A stretch of DNA of 6,894 nt, from NCBI GenBank assembly GCA_903868655.1, contig CAIPWG010000504.1, positions 1 through 6,894 on the forward strand, in the 5' to 3' direction. This stretch comes from an uncultured Sphingomonadales bacterium. Lineage in GTDB: Bacteria > Pseudomonadota > Alphaproteobacteria > Sphingomonadales > Sphingomonadaceae. The notes beneath the pieces are model-generated. The model was given only the letters and a program-made list of their open reading frames with translations. It was not told the DNA's origin and ran no database searches. Position 1 is the first letter of the stretch. Every line of letters starts with the position of its first letter. Both the position numbers and the translations under genes were made by a program. This document shows, piece after piece, positions 1 through 6,894 of this stretch.

Positions 1-82
1 CGCATCGGGCGCAAGCCCGTGATCATCGCGGGTTGCGTGTTGGCTGCGGCCACTTTGTTTCCGGCGTTCCACATGCTGACAG
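1..82 (+). pseudogene. Inverted piece of the MFS transporter gene (fold-back segment)
   Basis: Read on the plus strand in frame 1, bases 1-81 encode 27 residues beginning RIGRKPVIIAGC and ending PAFHMLT. This is the loop-and-helix stretch that follows the 'FGALSD' motif in metabolite:H+ symporters. The neighbouring minus-strand transporter gene breaks off exactly at 'FGALS', so this is its missing continuation in the opposite orientation. Only about four bases (the end of the Ser codon plus an Asp codon) are missing between the two pieces. The junction lies at about bases 76-82, where the sequence ctgaca fits either piece, a microhomology of a few bases. That the segment is inverted is seen directly. 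Whether it is a cloning, amplification or assembly chimera or a true inversion cannot be decided here; an artefact at a contig end is more likely. Confidence 0.85.
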
Positions 83-1009
83 GGCGCCAAACACCAGATA
101 GAAAGGGCTCGCCAGGATCAACGCCGCCGCCAGCAGCATGTTCGAGGTCAGGCCGTCGATCTTCAGCATTTTTTCGAGGAACGTCATGACGTAAAGCTGG
201 CAAGCGTAGAAAATGACGGCTTGTCCCGCGATCGCACCGAAAAACGCGATGATGACCACGCGCAAGTTTACCCATTGGCCGAATGCTTCGGTCAGCGGGG
301 CTTTCGAACCCGTGCCTTCGGCTTTCATCTTCTGGAAAACCGGCGACTCATGCAATTTGAAACGCAGCCACAGACCGACAACAAGAAACAGACCTGACAG
401 CAGATACGGAATGCGCCAGCCCCAGGCTTTGAATGCATCTTCGCCCACACCGGTGATTGGCGAGCGGACCGTGATCACGATCAACAGCGCCATGGCGAGA
501 CCCGCCGTAGCAGTGATCTGGATCCAGCTGGTGTAGAGCCCGCGCTTGTTGCTGGGCGCATGTTCAGCCACATAGCTGGCCGCGCCACCATATTCACCGC
601 CGAGTGCAAGACCCTGGAGCATGCGCAAACCCACCAGCATGGCCGGTGCCGCAACGCCCGCAGTCTTGTACGTGGGCAAACAGCCGACGAGGAACGTCGA
701 AACGCCCATCACCGACAAGGTGACGATGAACGTATAACGCCGACCCACCAGATCGCCGATCCGACCAAACACCAGCGCGCCGAACGGGCGCACGATGAAC
801 CCGGCGGCAAACACCAACAAGGCCATGATATAGGCGGTGGTTGGGTTCAAGCCGGTCAGAAACTGCGACGCGATAATCGCGGTCAGCAGTCCGTAAAGAT
901 AAAAGTCATACCATTCGAACACCACACCCAGCGAGCTGGCGGTGATAACCAATCTTTCAGAGGACGTTACTGTCGGATGTTTTGGCACATCATCAAATGT
1001 TGTTGCCAT
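23..1009 (-). CDS. MFS transporter, metabolite:H+ symporter family, 3' end disrupted
   Basis: This is an inner-membrane proton-coupled uptake carrier of the MFS, metabolite:H+ symporter (MHS) branch. The frame gives 328 residues from the ATG at 1009. That start is preferred because AAGGAG lies 8 bases upstream, whereas the in-frame GTG at 1048 has no ribosome binding site and adds a polar leader. Visible marks are the MHS-type first helix (GVVFEWYDFYLYG, 28-40), the loop 2-3 motif FGRIGDLVGRR (81-91), RMLQGLALGGEYGG (129-142), and 'WGWRIPYLLSG' before helix 6 (196-206). Helices 7 and 8 run to FGALS (307-311). The last 17 residues (312-328) are not transporter sequence; they are antisense to the inverted segment at 1-81. 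Family members usually have over 430 residues, so at least 100-200 are missing. The gene diverges from the acetyl-CoA synthetase, which suggests a small carboxylate such as acetate or propionate as substrate. That is inference; the family also includes proline-betaine, shikimate and oxoglutarate carriers. Confidence 0.85.
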   Translation of the reverse strand: MATTFDDVPKHPTVTSSERLVITASSLGVVFEWYDFYLYGLLTAIIASQFLTGLNPTTAYIMALLVFAAGFIVRPFGALVFGRIGDLVGRRYTFIVTLSVMGVSTFLVGCLPTYKTAGVAAPAMLVGLRMLQGLALGGEYGGAASYVAEHAPSNKRGLYTSWIQITATAGLAMALLIVITVRSPITGVGEDAFKAWGWRIPYLLSGLFLVVGLWLRFKLHESPVFQKMKAEGTGSKAPLTEAFGQWVNLRVVIIAFFGAIAGQAVIFYACQLYVMTFLEKMLKIDGLTSNMLLAAALILASPFYLVFGALSACGTPETKWPQPTRNPR

Positions 1010-1017
1010 GGCTTTCT

Positions 1018-1023
1018 CTCCTT
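1018..1023 (-). promoter_or_regulatory. Ribosome binding site of the MFS transporter
   Basis: The minus strand reads AAGGAG here, 8 bases before the ATG at 1009. This decides the start in favour of MATTFDDVPKHP and against the GTG 13 codons further upstream. Confidence 0.8.
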
Positions 1024-1325
1024 GCGCCCCGGTTTTGCCCTGGGCCACTGTTGTTACGTGCTAATCATCAAAGTGCAGGAATGTTTCGGTCTATATTGCA
1101 GCTGCCCGCCACTCAGCCACGCCAAAGTCCAGCGACAAGTCAGAATGCCGGCGTCATCTGCGCGAAATCCGATGTCGTAAAGGCATCCGAATCAGCTGAA
1201 GTACGCAAGCAACCAAACTCCACAGTGTCCCAAACCCCGCATGTTTGTGGTGTTTTCAAGCAAGTGTGAAGCCTTGCGCCTTGTTTGGCAGCGGGACGGT
1301 CACACTCTGTTCACCTTGTCACTCG

Positions 1326-1359
1326 TTGCACCCCGGCGTGCCCAGCCCGACTATAGTCG
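1326..1359 (+). promoter_or_regulatory. Candidate acs promoter or operator with a 12-base palindrome
   Basis: CGACTATAGTCG (1348-1359) is a perfect 12-base palindrome containing a TATA-like core. TTGCAC (1326-1331) lies 18 bases before the ACTATA hexamer, so the pair could be a -35/-10 promoter for acs with a leader of about 210 bases. The match to consensus is only partial. The palindrome may equally be a protein-binding site or chance. Confidence 0.22.
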
Positions 1360-1443
1360 TGCCTTGCGCGACCTTGGTCGATGTGCATTTTGCTGCGCTA
1401 TTGATTGGCAAAGCAAGGCGCCCCCACGGGGCTGGCCGAGCAT

Positions 1444-1465
1444 GGTTTCACGGCCGGTTGAAACC
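1444..1465. repeat. Inverted repeat GGTTTCA-N8-TGAAACC upstream of acs
   Basis: The arms at 1444-1450 and 1459-1465 are perfectly complementary over 7 bases and are separated by 8 bases (CGGCCGGT). The arm spacing would suit a dimeric DNA-binding protein on one face of the helix. It could also form a hairpin if transcription begins upstream. It lies 112 bases before the acs start codon and abuts the next dyad. Confidence 0.45.
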
Positions 1466-1485
1466 GCCTTTGCAAGGCGATCGCC
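1465..1485. repeat. Compound dyad CGCCTT-TGC-AAGGCG with overlapping GGCGATCGCC
   Basis: CGCCTT (1465-1470) and AAGGCG (1474-1479) form a perfect 6-base dyad around TGC. The second arm is shared with the perfect 10-base palindrome GGCGATCGCC (1476-1485). The dyad includes one of the four GCAAGGC copies in this region. It would overlap the -35 position of a weak promoter-like pair (TTTGCA 1469-1474 and CATAAC 1493-1498, 18-base spacing), which is where a LuxR-type activator could sit. Binding by the regulator encoded at 3692-4330 is a guess from position only. Confidence 0.4.
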
Positions 1486-1503
1486 ACAGGTCCATAACTG
1501 CTA

Positions 1504-1515
1504 AGACCATGGTCT
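1504..1515. repeat. 12-base perfect palindrome AGACCATGGTCT before acs
   Basis: AGACCATGGTCT is self-complementary over 12 bases. It runs into two smaller palindromes, GTCTAGAC (1512-1519) and GACGTC (1517-1522). It lies 61 bases before the acs start codon. A perfect 12-base palindrome is expected by chance only about once in 4,000 positions, so two in this 567-base region (with 1348-1359) is mildly more than expected. It could be an operator, or structure in the acs leader RNA. Confidence 0.35.
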
Positions 1516-1560
1516 AGACGTCGTTTCAGGCGCTTGGGCGCTATAGGGTCGGCCACGACG

Positions 1561-1568
1561 AGAGGAGA
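1561..1568 (+). promoter_or_regulatory. Ribosome binding site of acs
   Basis: AGAGGAGA carries AGGAG at 1563-1567, 9 bases before the ATG at 1577. It supports that start, which gives the N-terminus usual for the family. Confidence 0.8.
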
Positions 1569-1576
1569 GCCTTTAC

Positions 1577-3526
1577 ATGGGCGAGGTTGTTTATCCGGTG
1601 CCGGCCGATTGGGCCAAATCCGCACTTATCGACGAAGAGCGCTATTCTGCCATGTATCAGCGTTCGGTCGAAGAACCGGATGCGTTCTGGCGTGAAGAGG
1701 CGCAGCGGATTGATTGGATTTCGCCGTTCACCACGGTGCAGAACACTTCGTTCAACGAGGCTGATTTTGGTATCCGCTGGTTCGAAGATGGTACGCTGAA
1801 CCTGTCAGCCAATTGCCTCGACCGGCATTTGGCGACGCGCGGTGACGATATTGCGATCATTTGGGAACCCGACAGCCCGACCGAAGCGGAACGGCGCATC
1901 TCGTATCGCCAATTGCACACCGATGTCTGCCGTTTTGCCAACCTGCTGAAATCGCGCGGCGTCGCGCGCGGCGATCGAGTGACGATCTATTTGCCGATGG
2001 TGCCCGAAGCCGCAGTTGCCATGTTGGCCTGTGCGCGGATCGGCGCGATCCATTCGATCGTGTTCGCAGGATTTTCACCCGATGCGCTGGCGGGACGCAT
2101 TATTGATTGCGACAGCCGCATCGTACTGACGTCTGACGAAGGCCTGCGCGGCGGGCGCAAAGTGCCGCTGAAGGCCAATGTCGATGCCGCATTGAAACAG
2201 TGCCCCGATGTCGAAACCGTAATCGTGCTACAACGCACTGGCGCAGCAGTGGCCATGCTGGAAGGTCGCGATATCGATTGGGCCGGCGGTGTGGCCGAAC
2301 AACCGGTCGCATGCGACCCTGAAGAAATGAACGCCGAAGATCCGCTGTTCATCCTGTATACTTCGGGATCGACCGGAAAGCCCAAAGGCGTGTTGCATAC
2401 CACCGGCGGCTATGCGGTGTGGGCATCAATGACGCATGAATATGTGTTCGATTATCGCCCCGGCCAGATTTATTGGTGTGCCGCCGACATCGGCTGGGTC
2501 ACCGGCCATTCTTACGTGGTCTACGGCCCGTTGATGAACGGCGCGACTACCGTGATGTTCGAAGGCGTGCCCAATTGGCCCGATCCGAGCCGATTTTGGC
2601 AAGTGGTCGACAAATACGCTGTCGAGATTTTTTATGGCGCACCGACGGCGCTGCGCGCCCTGATGCGCGAAGGTGACGATTGGGTGAAAAAGACCGATCG
2701 TTCATCGCTGCGCGTGCTGGGCTCGGTCGGCGAACCGATCAATCCAGAAGCATGGGAATGGTATCACAAGGTGGTCGGCGACAGCCGCTGTCCGATCGTG
2801 GACACCTGGTGGCAAACCGAAACCGGTGGCGCAATGATCACCCCCCTGCCCGGCGCCACGCCGCTAAAGCCCGGCTCCGCAAGTCGGCCGTTCTTTGGCG
2901 TGAAGCCTGCGCTGCTCGACAACGATGGCCATGTCCTTACCGGTGCAGCCGATGGTTGCCTGGTGATCACCGACAGCTGGCCCGGCCAGATGCGCGGTGT
3001 CTGGGGTGATACCGAACGGTTTTTCCAGACGTATTTCACCACGTTCAAGGGCGTGTATTTCACCGGCGACGGATGCCGACGCGATGCAGACGGATACCAT
3101 TGGATCACCGGGCGCATTGATGACGTGATCAATGTGTCGGGTCATCGCATGGGTACCGCCGAAATCGAAAGCGCGCTGGTGGCGCATCACCACGTGGCCG
3201 AAGCCGCCGTCGTGGGCATGCCGCATGCGATCAAGGGCCAGGGCATTTATGCGTTTGTCACGTGCAATGCCGAAGTCACGCCCGACGAAGCTTTGCGCAA
3301 GGAACTGATCGCGTGGGTGCGTCAGGAAATCGGCCCGATCGCCACGCCCGATGTGATCCAGTTCGCCCCCGGCCTGCCCAAGACCAGATCGGGCAAGATC
3401 ATGCGACGCATCTTGCGCAAGATCGGTGAAAACGATTTGTCGAACCTGGGCGACACGTCGACCCTGGCCGACCCATCAGTGGTCGACAATCTGGTGGCCA
3501 ATCGGCCGCAATTGGTCGGCTCCTGA
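1577..3526 (+). CDS. acs: Acetyl-CoA synthetase (acetate--CoA ligase, AMP-forming)
   Basis: This cytoplasmic enzyme makes acetyl-CoA from acetate, ATP and CoA through acetyl-AMP, releasing AMP and pyrophosphate; it is the high-affinity route for acetate use. The frame gives 649 residues, the full family length (about 650). An N-terminal acetyl-CoA-synthetase domain (about 20-80) precedes the AMP-binding domain and a C-terminal lid. Visible motifs are RGGR for CoA contact (191-194), the phosphate loop [11 protein letters not shown] (261-271), [10 protein letters not shown] (409-418), FTGDG with Asp498, GRIDD with Arg513 and SGHR with Arg524. Lys607 lies in PKTRSGK. Residues equivalent to Salmonella Acs Val310, Thr311, Val386 and Trp414 are present as Val308, Thr309, Val384 and Trp412; these favour acetate over propionate or longer acids. 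Lys607 corresponds to the lysine that Pat-type acetyltransferases modify to switch the enzyme off. Acs is divergent from the transporter and followed by a two-component regulator. Propionyl-CoA synthetase is the main alternative and is disfavoured by the tryptophan. Confidence 0.96.
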
Positions 3527-3535
3527 CCCAAAACG

Positions 3536-3566
3536 CTCGTGGTGCCCCGCATTGGTGCACCACGAG
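3536..3566 (+). terminator. Strong hairpin after acs, possible terminator or attenuator
   Basis: CTCGTGGTGC (3536-3545) pairs perfectly with GCACCACGAG (3557-3566) across an 11-base loop, starting 9 bases after the acs stop codon. There is no T-run after it on the plus strand, so it is not a textbook Rho-independent terminator for acs. On the minus strand the stem is followed by CGTTTT, closer to that form, though no minus-strand gene is nearby. A competing pairing exists: GCTCGTGG (3535-3542) can also pair with CCACGAGC (3572-3579). The stem could end or weaken read-through into the regulator gene, or stabilise the acs transcript. Confidence 0.45.
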
Positions 3567-3678
3567 GTGCGCCACGAGCATTGCAGCCAGCGTAATTTTG
3601 GCGCAATAAACCGCTCGAAACCGTCCCGTTGCCTATGCGCCACCATCCATTGTGCCGCATCGTCATCGAAGGTCGGTC

Positions 3679-3685
3679 GGGGGGA
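3679..3685 (+). promoter_or_regulatory. Purine-rich ribosome binding site of the response regulator
   Basis: GGGGGGA ends 6 bases before the GTG at 3692. The run of six G is unusual, but it is the only suitable site and supports the GTG start. The resulting first residues lead directly into the receiver-domain strand VLIADDHP. Confidence 0.55.
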
Positions 3686-3691
3686 TAACGC

Positions 3692-4330
3692 GTGGGTTGC
3701 ACTGTTTTGATTGCCGACGACCATCCGCTTTTTCGGCAGGCGCTCGCACTCGCCTTGACCACCGCCGCGCCTGACGCACGCGTGATCGAGGCGGGAACGC
3801 TGGCTGCAGCCGCGCGAGCCACTGCGGAAACCCCAGATCTGGATCTCATTACGCTCGACCTGAAAATGCCCGGTGCAGTGGGCTATTCGGGTATAGCTTT
3901 GCTCCATGCGGAACGACCAACTGTACCCATCCTGGTGGTTTCGGGCGCTGACAATGCCAATGCAGCCGATGAGGCGCGTGCTTTCGGCGCAGTCGGATTT
4001 CTGCGCAAAGACGCTGATTTGCCGCAAATCGAAACTGCGATCCGCACCGCGTTGGGGCGCGTACCGGCATCCGAACGCATAGAAACGACAGCACCCGAGA
4101 CCGCGGTTGAACGGGTGCGCGGCACCGTTGCGGGCCTGACGCCGACCCAATTGAAAGTTCTGCTGGCCGTGCTTGCGGGCAAGCTCAACAAGCAGATCGC
4201 TTATGACCTTGGCATGAGTGAGGCCACGGTGAAGGCGCATATGACCGCGATCATGCGCAAACTTGACGTCCAAAATCGCACCCAGGCAGCGCTCGCCGCG
4301 CGATCACTGGGCCTCGACCTCGCGCTTTGA
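3692..4330 (+). CDS. crbR: NarL/LuxR-family response regulator, CrbR-like
   Basis: This is a cytoplasmic DNA-binding regulator of 212 residues, normal for the NarL/FixJ/LuxR class, starting at GTG. The receiver domain spans about 3-120: acidic pair Asp9-Asp10, phosphoacceptor Asp56 in LDLKMPG, switch residue Ser84 and the conserved Lys106. A linker (about 121-147) leads to the helix-turn-helix at 148-205 (LTPTQLKVLLAVLAG, then LGMSEATVKAHMTAIMRKL). All active-site residues are present, so it should be phosphorylated. It follows acs on the same strand after a 165-base gap holding a hairpin, and converges on a histidine kinase whose 3' end it overlaps by 27 bases. An acs-linked LuxR-type regulator next to an SSS-type hybrid kinase matches CrbR, the activator of acs in Vibrio and Pseudomonas. 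The response-regulator call is firm; the CrbR name rests on context. Confidence 0.9.
   Translation: MGCTVLIADDHPLFRQALALALTTAAPDARVIEAGTLAAAARATAETPDLDLITLDLKMPGAVGYSGIALLHAERPTVPILVVSGADNANAADEARAFGAVGFLRKDADLPQIETAIRTALGRVPASERIETTAPETAVERVRGTVAGLTPTQLKVLLAVLAGKLNKQIAYDLGMSEATVKAHMTAIMRKLDVQNRTQAALAARSLGLDLAL
4304..4330. other. 27-base convergent overlap of regulator and kinase 3' ends
   Basis: The regulator stop (TGA, 4328-4330, plus) lies beyond the kinase stop (TGA, 4304-4306 read on the minus strand). The last eight sense codons of the regulator (RSLGLDLA-L region) are therefore antisense to the last eight sense codons of the kinase. Both ends look native: the regulator ends just after its DNA-binding domain and the kinase ends after its receiver domain. 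Full-length transcripts of the two genes would be complementary here. Confidence 0.9.
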
Positions 4331-6894
4331 CGCTTCGGCAAGAAAGTCTGCCAACCGGTCAGGGTCTACCGGCTTGGCAAAGAACGGCACGCCACGGATA
4401 CGCAACGCGGTCAGCAACGTTCGATCCTGGGTGGCACTGATCATCGCCAAGGTTACGCGCGGCGCACGGCGGCGGATCCGGTCGATCAGCAGCAGTCCGT
4501 TTTCCCCATCGTCGAGATCGTGATCGATCAGCGCAACGTCGGCCTGATCGGCCTGCGCCAGCGCCTCGGCCATTGTGCGGGCGCCCAGCACTCGATGACC
4601 ATGGCCGGAAAAAAGCGCGGTGCTCGCTTCGATAATTGTGGCGTCGTTGTCGACAACCAGCACCGTCAACACCCGTCGATGCGCATGCGACAACCCACGC
4701 ACAACGGGTGCAGCCACCGGAAGCGCGGTCTCAGCACTTGCGGCAAGTGTAACGCAAAACCGGCTGCCCCGGCCCACTTGCGACGTGATCGAGATGTCGA
4801 GTTCAAGCAAACGGGCAATGCGTTCAACTGTGGCCAATCCCAGCCCCAAGCCTTCGGCCTCTACCGCGCCCAGTCGGGTGAATTCGGTGAAAATCGCTCT
4901 ATGTTGGTCAGACGGAATACCCACCCCGCTGTCGACCACTTCGATCCGAATGTGGCCAGCGCGTTGCCTCACACCGATCAGGACGCCGCCTCGCTCTGTG
5001 TAGCGCACCGCATTGGTCAACAAATTCTGCACCACAGACCGCAACAATCCCGAATCCGTGTGCACTACTCCGAACATCGGACCGACCTGCAATCGCAACC
5101 CCTTGGCCTCTGCCAGCGGGCGGATACCCTCGGCAATGTCGCGGAGGAACGGAGACAGCGCAAACGCCTCCGGGATGGGCTGTATGCCCCCGGCATCGAG
5201 CCTCGAGATATCGAGCAGTGCGCGCAGGAGCACCTCGGCACCACCGATTGAGCGTTCCACCCGTGTGACCAGGGGCCGTTGCGATTCCGTGGCTTGACGA
5301 TCCAGCGCGGAAAGAAACAAGCGCGCAGCATGAAGCGGCTGCAACAGATCGTGGCTGGCCGCAGCGAGAAACCGGGTTTTGTCGCGCGTTGACTCAGCCA
5401 GGCGGTGATTGGCCTGCGACAATTCATGGGTGCGATCGGCAACCCGGGTTTCGAGCTGCTCCAGCGTGCGCTGCAATTCGTCGCGCGTGTATGCTTCGGC
5501 GGTAACATCGGTAAAGCTGGTCAGGTATCCCCCACCCGGCATCGGCCCACCGACCGATTTGATCACGCGCCCATCCTGGCGGATACGCTCAGACACATAG
5601 GATTGGCGCGCGCGCAAGCGACCGAGGCGTCGCTCGACTTCGGACTGTACCGAGCCGGCAAACCCGCTGCGCACGATGTTGAAGCGGATCAGGTCGGCCA
5701 CCGGCACGCCCGCGCGAACTAATCCCGGGGGATAATCAAACAACTCGACATAAAGCGAATTCCACGCGACGAGATTGAACTCTCCATCAACCACACTGAT
5801 ACCCGATGGCAAATTTTCAAAACTGGCTGCCAACAATGCGCGTGAAAAACGCAGGCTTTGTCCGCCCTCGTCGAGCAATCGGGTTACATCATCGAGTCCC
5901 ATCTGGCCTCCCGCCATCGCCGAAGCGACCAGCGCGCGCGCCGATGGTGGACCGACAACCGAGGCAATCAGATCCTGCGCACGCCGAGCCGCGATCCGGT
6001 CTATCGGGGACGCACGAAGCGCAGGTGGAAACGCAACATCAGCCTGCTGCTCTCCGACAAAACGCGCCACGAGTTGCGCCAGATCGCCCTGATTGCGCAC
6101 TGGTCGCGCGCCACGCATCAGCCGTGGGCGATCGCGCTCACCGCCACGTGCAGCCGTCGTGGTAAACAACAATACGCCGTTTACCGCCAGCGACCACAGC
6201 ACGCCGTGGACCAGCGGGCTAGCATGGCCCACACCCAAAATATTGGATGGATCAAACGGCGTGGCACGCAAACCATTCAACCAGCTCGGCGGCAATATCG
6301 GCGGCAGCGCCAGTGTCCAAAGCCACAAGGAAAAGCCCGCAGTCAGGCTGATGCGGCCTGCCACCGGGTCACGCCCTTTGCCATAGACCGCCAAAAGGAA
6401 ATGCGGCCCAAATTGCGCCATGCCGGCAAAAGCGATCAAACCGATCGACGCCAGCGAACTGCGTTCAGACAACAACAGTGCCCAGGCAAGCGAGGCGCCA
6501 ATAACCGCGATGATCGCGATGCGACGGACGACCATCATGCGGCTGCCGAGATTGATCAGACCGCCGTCGGCAGTGCTGCGACGAAGCACTGCCGGAAAGA
6601 TCAGGTCGTTCGACACCATGATCGCCAGCGCCGTCGTATCGACAATCACCATCGCAGCCGCCGAACTGATGCCACCCAGCAAGGCTGCAATTTCTGCCCA
6701 GTGATACCCCGTGGCCGCGGGCAAGCGCAGGACGAACATGTCAGGTGTCGCGTCACCGGGCAGAGCGACCAATCCACCAAGCGCAATCGGCACGACCAAG
6801 AGCGCCATTGCCACGAGATAACCGGCGGCGCCCCATCGTGCGTGCCGTAGATCGTGGGGATCGCGCGCCTGTGCCAACCCCATGAAAAACTGAC
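4304..6894 (-). CDS. crbS: SSS-type hybrid sensor histidine kinase, CrbS-like (5' end outside window)
   Basis: This is a membrane sensor kinase, partial at its N-terminus. The frame stays open to the window edge (Gln-Phe-Phe precede the internal Met at 6883), so 6883 is not the true start. Numbered from that Met, 859 residues remain. About six hydrophobic segments (17-243) form the second half of a sodium/solute-symporter domain, including GGISSAAAMVIVDTTALAIMVSND (70-93), a stretch typical of CbrA/CrbS-type sensors. A helical STAC-like linker (about 265-345) follows, then a PAS domain (about 350-462) and a coiled coil (464-500). HisKA has His511 in AASHDLLQPLH. HATPase has Asn620/Asn624, DSGVGIP (651-657) and GLGLGL (678-683). 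A receiver domain ends the protein: Asp745/Asp747, phosphoacceptor Asp787, Ser816, Lys837. Roughly 250 residues are missing by comparison with the family. The same architecture occurs in NahK/ErcS' kinases; neighbouring acs and the LuxR-type regulator favour the acetate-switch kinase CrbS. The ligand, probably acetate or a relative, is inferred. Confidence 0.92.
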   Translation of the reverse strand, partial: QFFMGLAQARDPHDLRHARWGAAGYLVAMALLVVPIALGGLVALPGDATPDMFVLRLPAATGYHWAEIAALLGGISSAAAMVIVDTTALAIMVSNDLIFPAVLRRSTADGGLINLGSRMMVVRRIAIIAVIGASLAWALLLSERSSLASIGLIAFAGMAQFGPHFLLAVYGKGRDPVAGRISLTAGFSLWLWTLALPPILPPSWLNGLRATPFDPSNILGVGHASPLVHGVLWSLAVNGVLLFTTTAARGGERDRPRLMRGARPVRNQGDLAQLVARFVGEQQADVAFPPALRASPIDRIAARRAQDLIASVVGPPSARALVASAMAGGQMGLDDVTRLLDEGGQSLRFSRALLAASFENLPSGISVVDGEFNLVAWNSLYVELFDYPPGLVRAGVPVADLIRFNIVRSGFAGSVQSEVERRLGRLRARQSYVSERIRQDGRVIKSVGGPMPGGGYLTSFTDVTAEAYTRDELQRTLEQLETRVADRTHELSQANHRLAESTRDKTRFLAAASHDLLQPLHAARLFLSALDRQATESQRPLVTRVERSIGGAEVLLRALLDISRLDAGGIQPIPEAFALSPFLRDIAEGIRPLAEAKGLRLQVGPMFGVVHTDSGLLRSVVQNLLTNAVRYTERGGVLIGVRQRAGHIRIEVVDSGVGIPSDQHRAIFTEFTRLGAVEAEGLGLGLATVERIARLLELDISITSQVGRGSRFCVTLAASAETALPVAAPVVRGLSHAHRRVLTVLVVDNDATIIEASTALFSGHGHRVLGARTMAEALAQADQADVALIDHDLDDGENGLLLIDRIRRRAPRVTLAMISATQDRTLLTALRIRGVPFFAKPVDPDRLADFLAEASKREVEAQ
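4349..4379 (+). repeat. Bulged hairpin just after the regulator stop, inside the kinase gene
   Basis: TGCCAACCGGT (4349-4359) pairs with ACCGG-C-TTGGCA (4368-4379) with one bulged base and an 8-base loop. It begins 18 bases after the regulator stop codon, where a 3' end stem for that transcript would be expected. It also encodes residues near the kinase C-terminus (AKPVDPDRLADF), so the pairing may be incidental to coding. No T-run follows on the plus strand. Confidence 0.3.

Follow-up and report, generated by a model that had tools for sequence, protein, structure and literature searches.

The window analysed here is an entire contig (C504, 6894 bases) of a 2.93-Mb draft in 654 contigs (85.18% complete, 5.08% contaminated). 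Its bases 77-6892 carry genes for a transporter, acetyl-CoA synthetase, a LuxR-type response regulator and a hybrid histidine kinase, a cluster kept with the same four-gene order and orientations in five of the 99 loci searched (L031, L032, L038, L044, L055). The first three genes of this order were seen in L037. In L033 the regulator and the kinase are present, and the best synthetase match there (just 41%) is located elsewhere; the neighbour genes are absent from most of the remaining loci within the DNA examined. The cluster presumably resembles the one behind the CrbS/CrbR control of acetate use. The right end of the contig is collinear with L033 down to base 3. The conserved gene order, together with this collinear right end, implies that only the left end of the contig is misplaced.

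At this left end lies the N-terminal part (311 codons) of a gene for an MHS/MFS metabolite:proton symporter, which runs on the minus strand from an ATG at 1009-1007 down to base 77. It matches the TIGR00883 profile with 266.2 bits (cut-off 443.45), the match covering model positions 1-285 of 400 and the remainder of the gene lying off the contig, and its product is 90% identical to residues 1-311 of the homologue P0002. The last recognisable transporter residues are ...YLVFGALS, with the serine codon at 79-77. After this serine the minus-strand frame continues with 17 residues, A-CGTPETKWPQPTRNPR, and ends at a stop codon at 25-23. This tail (ACGTPETKWPQPTRNPR plus stop, bases 23-76, minus strand) is a wrong-strand reading of the piece of the gene described below: its last 16 residues had no match in any of the best 120 of 8000 candidate homologues. 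An earlier note on this DNA, made from the sequence alone, had claimed that the gene turns into unrelated sequence after FGALS, that the frame is 328 or 341 residues long and that its last 17 residues are false; the coordinates hold, both lengths are right (starts at 1009 and 1048, respectively), and the missing homologue matches bear out the falsity of the tail. Full-length relatives (P0001-P0003) have 551-570 residues, with a long hydrophilic Ala/Lys/Pro-rich stretch (approximately 340-480) after the FHxLT motif, whereas the usual model length is 400.

The natural continuation of the transporter is encoded on the opposite strand. Bases 1-81 of the plus strand translate as RIGRKPVIIAGCVLAAATLFPAFHMLT, i.e., the next 27 codons of the gene, and the product RIGRKPVIIAGC...FHMLT continues the minus-strand sequence. 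When proteins were searched with the 329-codon frame, 8000 candidates were scored, of which the best 120 were examined. The whole-frame alignment ended at the serine in 118 of these 120 homologues, 15 residues before it in one and six residues beyond it in another. The plus-strand piece was present in 117, always exactly one residue past the serine, and in those alignment rows that were inspected the single intervening residue is the Asp of a (L/V)SD(R/K)xGRK motif. The three homologues without the piece stop just past the same motif (P0048), stop earlier (P0072) or lose the frame (P0099). Identity across the 27 residues was 92.6% for P0001, the closest of the best 120 (93% overall), and 89-93% for the four closest (90-93% identical). 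The claim of the earlier note that bases 1-81 continue the transporter is thus confirmed by 117 of the best 120 homologues with their one-residue spacing. The alternative outcome that it had named, namely that the 27 residues would not align with MHS transporters, was not observed, as they do align in these 117.

The same picture emerges at the DNA level. In the related genome G009, query bases 139-946 match the minus strand (251146-251953) and query bases 4-95 the plus strand (252022-252114), and the two matches adjoin. Of the 109 loci searched with both pieces, 40 were compared, and in all 40 the plus-strand piece shares the strand of the gene and follows immediately after it; this comparison is weak for the paralogues (E up to 0.12). 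Judged from these sequences, the two pieces are close neighbours in the genome, one residue apart in the homologues, and the displaced piece is inverted relative to its genomic place.

The pieces meet at CTGACAG (bases 76-82), which fits both readings when set against the homologue residues: on the plus strand it encodes Leu-Thr (76-81), and on the minus strand (82-76) Leu-Ser followed by the first base, G, of the Asp codon. As base 75 misfits the minus-strand Asp codon GAC and base 83 misfits the start of the next codon (G-C/A/T in most relatives inspected), the shared stretch is up to 7 nt long; two of them, bases 77 and 81, each a wobble position in one of the two readings, escape verification. 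The join involves a few complementary bases, at most 7 nt. The microhomology that the earlier note had placed near ctgaca at 76-82 is therefore compatible with both readings. Its "about four" missing bases survive as the upper end of a range: counted from the contig start to the mirror point, the gene lacks two bases if all 7 nt are shared, and up to four if fewer are, depending on how CTGACAG is split. Accordingly, the contig starts within 2-4 bases of the would-be far breakpoint, and the far junction lies off the contig. A structure-driven hairpin within the segment was also considered and rejected, as the predicted fold of bases 1-90 is unremarkable compared with shuffled sequences (z = -0.45).

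With bases 1-1050 as query, the inverted segment was found in one copy in the draft (one match), and an uninverted copy was not found. With P0002 as query, the draft showed six matches. Two are on the window, namely residues 1-311 (90%) and residues 313-354 (64%, extending beyond the genuine 27 residues); the remaining four, on C547, C426, C461 and C223, reach 29-34%. There was no high-identity match for the C-terminal half of the transporter gene in this search. Since the matches elsewhere are of low identity only, the collinear continuation would be unassembled or on a contig outside the draft.

Contig C648 (L209 in G000) has another fold-back at its 5' end: its bases 1-79 and its bases 216-294 are exact reverse complements of each other. 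This fold-back sits in a gene for an aspartyl-protease/TPR protein. The protein search with its 438-codon frame returned 122 relatives, and among the 120 compared the alignment starts at residue 22-26 in 111, at residue 1 in one and later in eight. P0121, which is 97% identical, reads ...QINGHAVRAMLDTGA where C648 reads ...SPPSEMVRVRAMLDTGA. At the C648 join up to 8 nt (GTGCGCGC, bases 72-79, codons V-R-A) fit both readings, and the tail duplicates an arm which is still in place. At the opposite end of C648 (approximately 5067-5134), the last ~68 bases depart from the overlapping contig L163, with 97.5% identity across the 119 bases preceding the departure; the G+C content is 47% in the last 66 bases versus 62% for the contig. 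This end is possibly another chimeric tail.

How common such ends are was surveyed in 100 further contigs, mostly every seventh number plus seven picked by hand (C500, C502, C503, C505-C507, C547). Together with the window these make 101 contigs, 38 of which consist entirely of N, so the palindrome scan covers 63 readable contigs with 126 ends. After the 79 nt of C648, the longest exact inverted arms at these ends measure 22 nt, which is a local palindrome, and 16 nt. In addition, collinearity was assessed by comparing the ends with 800 kb of the relative G027 (7500 N) and 109 other loci; this 202-end test, like the overlap comparison of the 101 contigs, includes the all-N contigs. A relative was matched by 78 ends, 29 of them strongly (140 bits or more), and among these 29 only the left end of the window matched the opposite strand strongly (59 bits) within its terminal 200 bases. 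Two others of the 29 gave weak opposite-strand matches (33 and 28 bits), each next to a collinear match that extends to base 1. The collinearity test detects only the displaced kind of inverted end and the palindrome scan only the duplicated kind. With one inverted end among 29 strongly matched ones, a general contig-end fault of the draft is rejected, and this count tells against the chimera. On this evidence inverted ends are rare in the draft, two being established among 126 readable ends.

At several other ends, alignments break off 30-400 nt before the contig does, in part for ordinary reasons. The transporter matches on C547 and C461 end 84-90 nt before the contig edge, and inspection by eye shows that both contigs carry on in the same frame and strand. 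None of the 126 ends shares an exact end-to-end overlap of 14-250 nt with another, as was looked for with regard to the assembler k. Near-identical overlaps do exist: the 5' end of L147 and the 3' end of L169 share 117 nt at 96.6%, and the 5' end of L216 (C547) and the 3' end of L116 (C223) overlap near-identically by eye. Such overlaps suggest mixed strains in the draft.

What could have put the 81 bases on the wrong strand? Since the minus-strand frame is open to its stop codon, the gene could be read as a natural short transporter truly ending in the ACGTPETKW-type tail, but this is extremely improbable. Relatives naturally ending in such a tail, for which the earlier note had allowed, were not found: 0 of the best 120 homologues carry it, whereas 117 have the 27 plus-strand residues at the expected place, and for these 120 homologues the idea is refuted. 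A real chromosomal inversion of ~80-85 bp, flanked by inverted repeats of 7 bp (CTGTCAG/CTGACAG) and either fixed or carried by some of the population, would disrupt the transporter. Such an event is consistent with the short inverted repeat at the join and with a contig start 2-4 bases from the expected far breakpoint, and the contig-end overlaps at 96.6-97.5% identity suggest that strains are mixed. However, the contig does not reach the far junction, no uninverted segment turned up in the draft, and none of the best 120 homologues has the inverted tail; furthermore, C648 shows the same kind of join plus a duplicated arm, unlike a simple in-place inversion. Moreover, in a study of real Salmonella rearrangements (PMC3411829), the 7- and 9-bp inversion junctions failed verification, whereas the five junctions of 12-18 bp passed. 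We regard a true inversion as improbable, and leave it at that level because its far breakpoint lies off the contig. No better are the prospects of a specific form of it, in which an ~85-bp micro-inversion between 7-bp repeats would turn off the transporter beside the acetyl-CoA synthetase cluster in a fraction of the population, and the contig would break at the meeting point of both orientations.

A pure assembly misjoin would need no chimeric molecule, only a correctly read short fragment merged in the wrong orientation via a 5-7 nt overlap. The overlap at the join is indeed 7 nt at most, and in length the inverted piece is close to a short read or k-mer. Assemblers, however, do not ordinarily merge sequences on a 7-nt overlap, and the C648 tail copies an arm that is still in place, which is a better fit to a chimeric read. 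We therefore rate the misjoin as improbable too, marginally below the inversion. By far the most probable explanation is a fold-back chimeric molecule or read built into the contig end, which would have carried the 81-base piece on the wrong strand; that one of the two, chimera or misjoin, applies is more probable still. The inverted tail of C648, of like size (79 nt) and with similar microhomology, supports the chimera: that a single draft holds two inverted tails of ~80 nt, both joined at microhomologies, points to the incorporation of fold-back chimeric reads at contig ends. The inverted left end of the window is thus most likely an ordinary artefact. The earlier note had already ranked an inverted chimera above a true ~85-bp inversion; this order is supported, and the C648 fold-back shifts the balance further towards an artefact.

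Such a chimera could have formed as follows. A gene-sense single-stranded copy would end in CTGACAG, and its 3' end would likely anneal to CTGTCAG ~80 bases upstream, on its own or on a sister strand. Extension of the annealed end would then give sense followed by antisense sequence; what is observed of this is one 7-nt stretch fitting both readings. The own-strand variant is the weaker one, as self-priming hairpins were held by Lasken and Stockwell not to be the main route in their data (PMC1855051). An assembler without an assembled path to the true continuation would likely extend the contig through the join and then stop, after about one k-mer or short-read length to judge from the tails of 79 and ~79-82 nt. 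The extension would end once the next k-mer is used elsewhere, or at the end of the read.

The organism itself is predicted to carry an intact transporter gene. For annotation, caution is needed: the predicted 328- or 341-residue protein would bear 17 false residues, and a 62-codon plus-strand frame would pass for an orphan. As two of the 126 readable ends carry inverted tails of ~80 nt, genes at such contig ends should not be called truncated, fused or inverted without read support.

Among the titles and abstracts surveyed on misassemblies and on contig ends that fold back or are palindromic (e.g., PMC7111523), nothing exactly alike was seen, and we make no claim that the phenomenon is unpublished. 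Spontaneous micro-inversions (PMC3411829) share the short inverted repeat at the join with the window, but the verified ones have repeats of at least 12 bp, whereas here at most 7 bp are shared and one of two junctions is visible. Closer parallels come from amplified DNA, whose Illumina libraries contain more wrongly oriented pairs (PMC4060946). In multiple displacement amplification, 406 of 475 chimeras were inverted and joined nearby pieces, with up to 21 complementary nt, and at least two complementary bases were present in 93.5% of the inverted pieces less than 10 kb apart (PMC1855051); in another data set the overlaps peaked at 6 nt, most being 5-8 nt, and the distance between the pieces peaked at 250-300 nt (PMC4595205). 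The pieces of the window lie ~80 nt apart, unlike this peak, which counts against the chimera. Furthermore, those chimeras were seen in reads and ours in a contig, from a sample which may or may not have been amplified. In their main feature the two agree: nearby pieces are inverted at a few complementary bases, at most 7 here and 2-21, mostly 5-8, there (PMC1855051, PMC4595205).
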